Shown one piece after another: positions 42,844 through 45,800 of a stretch of 64,000 nt of DNA (position 1 is the stretch's first letter; the number at the start of each line of letters is the position of its first letter). The notes beneath the pieces are model-generated. The model ran no database searches. It was not told where the DNA came from and saw only the letters and a program-made list of their open reading frames with translations. The stretch spans positions 3,176,501 to 3,240,500 of the forward strand of contig OX359189.1 of assembly GCA_947172415.1 (NCBI GenBank), given 5' to 3'. The DNA is from Chondrosia reniformis (Eukaryota; Porifera; Demospongiae; Chondrillida; Chondrillidae). Both the position numbers and the translations under genes were made by a program.

Positions 42844-45800
42844 ATGTCACGTGATCAACCTGCTAAAGCGTTTGTTTGCGTTATGCTACGATTGAGCGGA
42901 AGAGTACGACCGTGGTTTATTAGACGATTGAGACCCAAGATAGAGTTATATTCTGCGCGAACTTTGAGTATGGCAGAACAACAGAATCCAAAGTTAAATG
43001 TCGAAGAAAAGCTCCATCTCATAAGCAGGAACCTACAGGTGGATGACAAATAGCCAACACACAATCTCTCTAGCTATTAGTCACATCGCATCCCTTGTTC
43101 AAGAGTGTCATGTTTGCAGAGTTGTGTAGTGAAGAATTATTTGGTCTGTATACGTGTATTATGATTAGAATATTTACGGCAACTCTAGGATTTTGGATGA
43201 GGAGATATATACATGGTTGAATTCCACAATATGTGCATTTAAATGTGCTACCAGAGGCACAGAGTGTCAACTGGCCTCATGTGTATGTTATTATTTGTCT
43301 ACTATAGGAAATACTGGGAGAGGATAAACTAAAATCACTTTTATTATCAGGAGAAGATGTGTCTTTATACTGGGGTACAGCTACCACCGGAAAGCCTCAT
43401 GTAGCCTACTTTGTACCAATGTCAAAGGTGGCAGATTTTCTACGGGCAGGATGTCATGTATGTGGAGCAACACTATTGAAATAGAATTTATGGAGAGATA
43501 TGTAGATATAAAATATGAAAGCCTATGGAACTTGCTGATAACATGTTGTTAACATTAATCATATGTCTGAGTGTGAAATGATTAGCTCCGGTGTGTATTA
43601 GTTCTGGTGCTGTTTACCTCAGCATATGGTATGTATGTATGTTGATAAAGATAAGGATTCCTTCTGTATTCTACTAATCTTTTGGATGTGACATCCTTCT
43701 ATCTTTGAAAGTCTAAACACATTTTGGATTTATTTCTTCTGGTGGAGCATGTAACATCCAAATGATGTGTGTTAAATCATTGTAAAGAAGCTAGAGTAAT
43801 GACTGAAGGATATGATAAATTGACTATTATATACATGATACATGCATCTATGTTGCATGAAACCATATTAGTTATTTATGTGTTCCCAAGCAATTTAAAT
43901 AGCCTTATATTTTGCCACGAAATTTCATTATCAGTGGGTTTTATATTAGTTGTTGTGTTCCTGTGTAGGTTACAATTTTATTTGCTGATCTTCATGGTTT
44001 CCTTGACAACATGAAGGCTCCTTGGGAACTGTTGGACTTACGAGTTAAATATTATGAGTTTGTTATAAAGGTGTGTTTACAAATATTGACATTCAAACAG
44101 TGCATTCCATAGCCTTTCTCCTCCAGGCAATGCTGGAGTCCATAGGAGTGCCCCTTGATAAGCTAAAGTTTGTCAAAGGAACAAGCTACCAACTTAGCAG
44201 GTATAATATATGTACCTATTTGTCATCCTGTTTGTATATTATTTTGGGCAACCTAAATTATCTATAAAAGGTTCATCTTCCTATTTATTGAGCTTCACAT
44301 GACAAGAAGCAAGTGTGGGGGAAGAATTGCCACGGTCAAATATCCAACCGAAAATCAACCCAAAAACTATCTTTAGACAGTCTTCATGTGATAGTAGTTA
44401 AATAGTTTCCAGACCGGCTTGGTGGCCTGCATTGGTTGACAACTCGTCTGAAGAGTTCCCTAGAGTAGATATTAATGCTAATTAAGATACCACACACACA
44501 CACATTGCCTTTTCTATTCAAATACCAGAAGCAATAGTTACCAGACCCATTTGGCAAGTGTGTTTTAATTATAAGATGGCTCTTTATTGTAACAGGGAGT
44601 ACACACTGGATGTGTACCGCATGACGTCAGTAGTCACAGAGCACGATGCTAAGAAGGCTGGAGCAGAGGTAGTCAAGCAAGTCCAGAATGCTCCTCTGAG
44701 TGGACTTCTCTATCCAGGGCTACAGGTGGGCGGGGCATGTATCTCTATCCAGGGCTACAGGTGGGTGGGGCATGTATCTCTATCCAGGGCTACAGGTGGG
44801 TGGGCATGTATCTCTATCCAGGGCTACAGGTGGGTGGGGCATGTATCTCTATCCAGGGCTACAGGTGGGTGGGGCATGTATCTCTATCCAGGGCTACAGG
44901 TGGGTGGGGCATGTATCTCTATCCAAGGCTACAGGTGGGTGGGCATGTATCTCTATCCAGGGCTACAGGTGGGCGAGGCATGTATGTGACATTGAGATGT
45001 AAAAATTTAAAAGTAGGGATGGCAGATCTGGCAAAATGTACTAAAACAGAGAGTGATGATGTGATAAGGGGCTAGAGAAGCATACTAAGAGTTTCTTACT
45101 GTAGCAGCCATTTCTGTAATCAGGGAACAGAATTAAACAAGGACATGCTAAGTCCTTCAATCCCTAGTCATAGAGACTGCTGTTGAAGTAGCTAGTGAGT
45201 GTATTGAAATGGTGCACAGGTGTGTTGAAATGGTGCATAGGTGTGTTGAAATGGTGCACAGATGTGTTGAAATGGTGCACAGGTGTGTTGAAATGGTGTA
45301 CAGGTGTGTTGAAATGGTGCACAGATGTGTTGAAATGGTGTGTTGAAATGGTGCACAGGTATGTTGAAATGGTGTACAGATGTGTTGAAATGGTGTACAG
45401 GTGTGTTGAAATGGTGTACAGGTGTGTTGGAGATGTTAATGTACTGAGATTTAGTGCTACGCTACATTGTTGCATAAGGTACGTATGTGGATTAGTTAAC
45501 ATTTTCCAGCTGCCACTCTTCACAGCTGTGTAGTATGATCTCTCTCGATTACATTATTAGGCTTTAGATGAAGAGTACCTGAAAGTAGATGCTCAGTTTG
45601 GTGGTGTAGATCAAAGAAAAATATTTACCTTTGCTGAAAAAGTATGTTTCTACATTTGAGATGATATATTGCTATGTCTATATGTATGTCAGTGTTTTCC
45701 CGTCAAATTAATGCATTTTTGGATCGAATTAACACTTTTCGAATTAGCTACAAATTGGCACTGAAACTAAAGCAATTCCAGTCTTCTGCAGCTTCCTTGG

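Follow-up and report, generated by a model that had tools for sequence, protein, structure and literature searches.

Tandem copies of an exon-intron boundary at exon 5 of the tyrosyl-tRNA synthetase gene YARS1 in the sponge Chondrosia reniformis

The YARS1 locus and the array at the end of exon 5

The window (i.e. the whole stretch of DNA that was analysed, 64,000 nucleotides of Chondrosia reniformis contig OX359189.1, forward-strand positions 3,176,501 to 3,240,500) carries the gene for cytoplasmic tyrosyl-tRNA synthetase, YARS1, which encodes an essential enzyme (Table 1). The model used here ends at 51702 and does not include the last coding exon(s) beyond that point. When its 17 exons are spliced no stop is encountered, and the product aligns to human cytoplasmic TyrRS (1n3l, E 1.4e-160), with a C-terminal part that aligns to EMAPII-type domains; Pfam recognises tRNA-synt_1b (3.8e-58) and tRNA_bind (4.1e-31). 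Searched with 70 residues from exons 5 and 6, the genome shows no match outside these two exons. Both the identification of the gene as YARS1 and the joining of exon 5 to exon 6 at 44725/45561, which a sequence-only reading of this DNA had proposed, are therefore borne out, the alignment to 1n3l being ungapped over an 18-residue stretch at that junction.

Table 1. Features of YARS1 and of two further splice-site arrays. Positions are those of the window unless L019, a 10-kb stretch sampled elsewhere in the genome, is named; a slash within a motif marks the splice site.
Feature	Position	Strand	Description	Basis
YARS1	42970..51702	+	cytoplasmic tyrosyl-tRNA synthetase, 17 exons, 496 codons	spliced model, homology
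Exon 5	44596..44725	+	ends ...LLYPGLQ; overlaps unit 1 by its final 19 bases (44707-44725)	
True donor of intron 5	44726..44727	+	GT	gene model and human TyrRS alignment
Intron 5	44726..45560	+	835 bp, phase 0	
Exon 6	45561..45641	+		spliced model, human TyrRS alignment
Array in YARS1	44707..44985	+	eight units of 34-35 bp	TRF, motif positions, genome-unique core
Seven copied donors	44761..44970	+	GT at 44761, 44796, 44830, 44865, 44900, 44935, 44969	CAG/GTGGG
Second, unrelated minisatellite of intron 5	45199..45429	+	21-bp unit GTGTGTTGAAATGGTGCACAG, donor-like CAG/GTGTGT	TRF
BUD13 donor array	L019 3917-4139		24 bp; AGG/GTGAGT at 3917, six GGG/GTGGGT, one GGG/GTGAGT	
S6-kinase acceptor array	L019 8454-8816	-	five CTAAG/ACTC[A/T]CCC[G/A]GTGTAC exactly 80 bp apart	

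The boundary between exon 5 and intron 5 forms the beginning of a tandem array (TRF period 35, 8.0 copies, 96% matches), whose units start at 44707, 44742, 44777, 44811, 44846, 44881, 44916 and 44950 and are arranged head-to-tail with spacings of 35, 35, 34, 35, 35, 35 and 34. Each unit consists of 19 exonic bases (TCTCTATCCAGGGCTACAG) and 15-16 intronic bases around CAG/GTGGG, a motif that is found eight times, once in every unit, so that the first intron bases of the eight donors are 44726 and the seven copied positions of Table 1. Following these results, the description of the array as a minisatellite built from the real end of exon 5 and its donor, in which one true donor is followed by seven copies 34-35 bp apart, is correct. 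LLYPGLQ, the peptide encoded by the exonic bases of unit 1, is conserved in human TyrRS, and exon 5 is therefore the source of the repeat rather than the reverse.

The units differ at few places. The exonic part of unit 7 has a single G-to-A change relative to the 19-base stretch, and the intronic parts of units 3 and 7 are one G shorter, which accounts for the two 34-bp units. GTGGGC is common to units 1 and 8, GTGGGT to units 2-7, and unit 8 has one further change. TRF also gives a period of 139 bp (score 530, versus 516 for 35 bp), and the edges of the array have at most one base in common.

When the whole genome (15 contigs, 117,379,552 bases) was searched for the 23-bp core of the unit with up to three mismatches, eight matches were obtained, all of them in the array, while the reversed control pattern gave none; the array of this core is therefore not due to chance. 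A dispersed repeat family is ruled out, as all eight matches lie here. A DNA search with 401 bases, which skips simple repeats, returned one match in the genome. Hiding of the donor copies in a hairpin is unsupported, the array folding less stably than shuffled sequences (z +2.83; none of 100 shuffles folds less well than the array region).

An artefact of assembly is unlikely. The published assembly is based on PacBio HiFi reads (~70x; PMC12181767), which according to the cited part of that report have a mean length of ~13 kb (10.31 Gb in 0.80 million reads) and should span the 279 bp of the array; its primary QV is 69.8, and the units carry distinct variants. On the other side, the assembled sequence is the primary haplotype, with a k-mer completeness given as 69.43% (PMC12181767), and the other haplotype, GCA_947172445.1, may differ. 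That the copy number is different, or the array absent, in reality through misassembly or collapse has, on balance, hardly any probability.

The YARS1 gene contains four minisatellites in total, two of which lie in introns 7 and 9 (46081-46708, 19 bp x 33.6, and 47730-47920, 16 bp x 11.9).

Strength of the copied donors and their predicted products

The genome has seven U1 snRNA matches above the Rfam cut-off, five of which (L002-L005 and L007) have AACTTACCTGG as their 5' end; L008 has one difference, and the stretch compared at L006 was not the 5' end. Duplex energies were computed against ACUUACCUG. With -10.3 kcal/mol, the true donor of intron 5 forms the strongest U1 duplex among the 17 donors of the model, compared to -10.9 kcal/mol for the copied donors of units 2-7 and -10.3 kcal/mol for that of unit 8. 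In a weight matrix built from the other 16 donors of YARS1, the true donor scores 8.76, units 2-7 score 10.14 and unit 8 scores 8.76; a slightly different matrix background gives 8.36 for the true donor and 9.85 for units 2-7. On both measures, copies 2-7 slightly outdo the true donor.

In intron 5 as a whole, 16 donor-like sites equal or exceed the score of its true donor. The number of such sites averages 1.5 and reaches 5 at most in 200 dinucleotide shuffles, and each of the other 15 introns of the model has zero or one. Eight of the 16 lie in the array (the seven copied donors and a CAT/GTATGT at the array end), seven in the 21-bp minisatellite further downstream (scores 9.7-11.8, above the true donor) and one elsewhere. 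No source exon end was seen for this second minisatellite.

The use of donors 2, 3, 4, 5 or 7 would lead to a stop codon in exon 6, whereas donors 6 and 8 are in frame, and their inserts of 174 and 243 nt would lengthen the protein by 58 or 81 residues at a point between the positions that align to human Q170 and A171. In human TyrRS, Y166, Q170 and D173 bind tyrosine. Retention of intron 5 would lead to a stop at 44987. It had been proposed that all three frames are open through the array and that downstream donors would add a variable peptide or shift the frame. There is indeed no stop inside the array; of the three frames, however, just that of exon 5 runs from the start of the exon into the array without interruption, and it stops at 44987. 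A frame shift or added peptide is likewise expected from downstream donors, but the variable peptide applies to two of the seven and a stop to the other five.

All seven possible retained blocks run from GT to AG and could thus, in principle, be excised in a second round of splicing. The array might then erase itself, with downstream donors being used, the retained block being spliced out later, and the normal mRNA being restored. However, the acceptors that would be rebuilt are weak, as the CTACAG sites in the array score 3.9-4.7, compared to at least 5.7 for 15 of the 16 real acceptors (the remaining one scores 2.29), although these real acceptors also trained the matrix that was used for scoring. 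Besides, no intron of the model is as short as a single unit (35 nt), the minimum being 56 nt. Such two-step removal is therefore considered very improbable.

Comparison with known systems

Duplicated exon-intron boundaries, termed 'mirages', have been described in amphioxus, where they occur in Adh3, troponin C, the globins BflGb6 and BflGb9, and PGBD5 (PMC3087553, PMC3902484). As far as the cited parts of these papers go, the units in Adh3 measure 10-72 bp, the copy number in BflGb6 varies by haplotype (6 versus 3 units), units at the edges escape homogenisation, and RT-PCR suggests regular splicing, which is reported to be undisturbed. Two structural features place the sponge array within this known kind, on the evidence of its sequence: all eight units span the exon-intron boundary, and the authentic boundary lies at the edge of the array, donor 1 giving the protein that aligns to human TyrRS. 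In both cases the copies are minisatellite-like, tandem and equipped with splice signals, and in amphioxus, according to the same excerpts, the authentic boundary stays in use and both donor-side and acceptor-side forms occur. As for the edge units, the differences between edge and inner units in the sponge rest on few sites. The sponge array differs in that it belongs to a sponge rather than a cephalochordate, lies in a gene for a housekeeping synthetase and consists of eight nearly identical 35-bp units; copy-number variation and normal splicing are features reported for amphioxus. No report of mirages in sponges was found in the open-licence literature.

A second precedent is the minisatellite of human IFI6 (6-16), in which, in the portion of the source cited, units carry donors beside a true donor and splicing makes use of those in two downstream repeat units (PMC4526556). 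The sponge array resembles it in that all eight units have an intact CAG/GTGGG, but differs in that downstream donors are described as used in IFI6, whereas five of the seven in the sponge are predicted to give a stop. By analogy, the array could be a functional multi-donor minisatellite, in which several downstream donors are used at an appreciable rate and the number of copies sets how much YARS1 mRNA is productive and how much is not. That all seven copies have kept CAG/GTGGG, six of them being slightly stronger than the true donor, would fit such a role, as does the example of IFI6 itself. Yet the enzyme is an essential one, and each downstream donor would lead to a truncated or interrupted protein; in addition, the amphioxus mirages reportedly leave splicing undisturbed, to the extent covered by the cited excerpts (PMC3087553, PMC3902484). 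A tuning function is, taken together, rather unlikely.

Tandem duplication has also been implicated in the gain of introns (the Rogers model), with ATP2A1 and fission yeast SPOG_01682 as examples in the cited part of the literature (PMC4974935). There, as here, tandem copies that bear AGGT create paired GT and AG sites, but the sponge copies lie inside one 835-bp intron, the acceptor of which (45561) is outside the array. The array did not supply both ends of intron 5, since this acceptor (TTATTAG/GCTTTA) lies 576 bp past the array and is no copy of the unit.

Splice-site arrays elsewhere in the genome

Twenty evenly placed 10-kb stretches of contigs 1 and 2 were sampled in addition to the window (264 kb in total). 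With a period of 10-120 and at least three copies, the sample holds 46 minisatellites, 11 in the window and 35 outside it. Three of the 46 copy a splice site, but this includes the YARS1 array, for which the window was chosen; the unselected figure is two of 35, both in one 10-kb stretch (L019). The 83 frames beside arrays were assessed in part by a Pfam scan (12 frames, two of them trimmed) and for the other 71 by eye. No genome-wide rate of splice-site arrays is drawn from the sample, and an excess of boundary arrays over chance is not claimed, because short introns put many arrays near boundaries.

The first of the two lies in the gene for BUD13, a splicing factor. It starts at the donor of an exon that ends in HEWGRG and fills most of a 223-bp intron, the exon junction being backed by human BUD13 (E 5.7e-21). 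Because the units have no more than a few G's in common with the exon, what the array copies is the donor and not the exon; its retained blocks finish in GG instead of AG. In the Pfam scan this gene is represented by Bud13 with E 3.9e-5 and 24.5 bits, which is below the curated cut-off of 27. An in-frame coding repeat (42 bp, 12.3 copies, 14-residue repeats of the type RHDSPDDLSPPRRG) is also present at L019 3013-3530.

The second is an acceptor-side array, assigned to a ribosomal S6 kinase gene on account of the kinase exons on either side of it. Its last acceptor continues into the open frame SPGVPVSARSHELFKGF, located between the exons of two kinase domains; the exon itself has no Pfam match and is not covered by the PDB match. 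An alternative assignment of the array at L019 8454 as a plus-strand donor array was dropped, as no exon was seen there and the acceptor copies are on the minus strand instead.

A screen for donor motifs found donor-like sites (score of at least 8) in at least half of the units in 4 of 92 array-strands, two of these being in YARS1 intron 5. It missed the BUD13 array, the inner copies of which score 6.74 and which was found via the open frames beside arrays. Besides Bud13, the 12 scanned frames gave Helitron_like_N (E 1.4e-8) and weak matches to Arf (0.09) and DUF6633 (0.098), while eight had no Pfam match.

Some further arrays in the sample are worth recording. On the minus strand of L022, a pyrimidine-rich 27-bp array of 66 copies (6212-8018) adjoins the acceptor of an exon called Arf-like on the basis of the weak Pfam match (E 0.09), and forms its pyrimidine tract. 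At L027 1775-1859, a 14-bp array lies beside the open frame that matches Helitron_like_N, and two 10-kb stretches of contig 1 (L025 and L026) are made up for the most part of degenerate 13-bp and 22/45-bp satellite arrays.

The two additional splice-site arrays from the 200 kb sampled outside the window show that boundary arrays are something that this genome makes. A much broader proposition would be that there are many such arrays genome-wide, that the copied sites are used and then corrected by second splicing or decay, and that, for essential genes such as YARS1, the length of the array serves as a dial that drifts slowly; this is a speculative extension with a low probability.

Origin and tolerance of the array

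Anatomy, genome-unique core, coding origin, near-identity of the units and predicted products can all be read from the DNA, and the explanation that probably accounts for them is that of a mirage-type minisatellite, i.e. a recent slippage array which is tolerated while almost all productive YARS1 mRNA comes from donor 1. A 35-bp stretch across the end of exon 5 and its donor would have been tandemly duplicated, after which slippage or unequal exchange would have brought the array to eight units. The distribution of GTGGGC and GTGGGT, the 34-bp units 3 and 7 and the four-unit period fit an initial duplication and a later internal expansion by several units at a time. The high identity of the units suggests either youth or homogenisation.

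With the 19 exonic and 15-16 intronic bases around every donor reproduced nearly without change, donor 1 cannot be recognised by what immediately surrounds it. Its position beside the body of exon 5 should instead mark it out, and it would in this way come to make nearly all of the productive mRNA. Transcripts spliced at the other donors would for the most part contain premature stops and be degraded, or else encode a broken enzyme, and the array would be tolerated rather than selected. Two facts speak most strongly against tolerance: six copies slightly surpass the original as donors, and each of the seven copied CAG/GTGGG motifs is still intact. The reported use of downstream repeat donors in human IFI6 may, as an analogy, count against it as well.

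Significance

The array extends boundary-copying minisatellites from amphioxus to a sponge, with donor and acceptor forms in one genome. Its eight donors in near-identical surroundings separate position from local sequence in the choice of a donor, within one essential gene, and RNA-seq data from the same specimen are public (ERR10177766). If donor 1 alone is used, this would limit models that rest on local donor strength, whereas if other donors are used, the array would be a natural dial on an essential enzyme.
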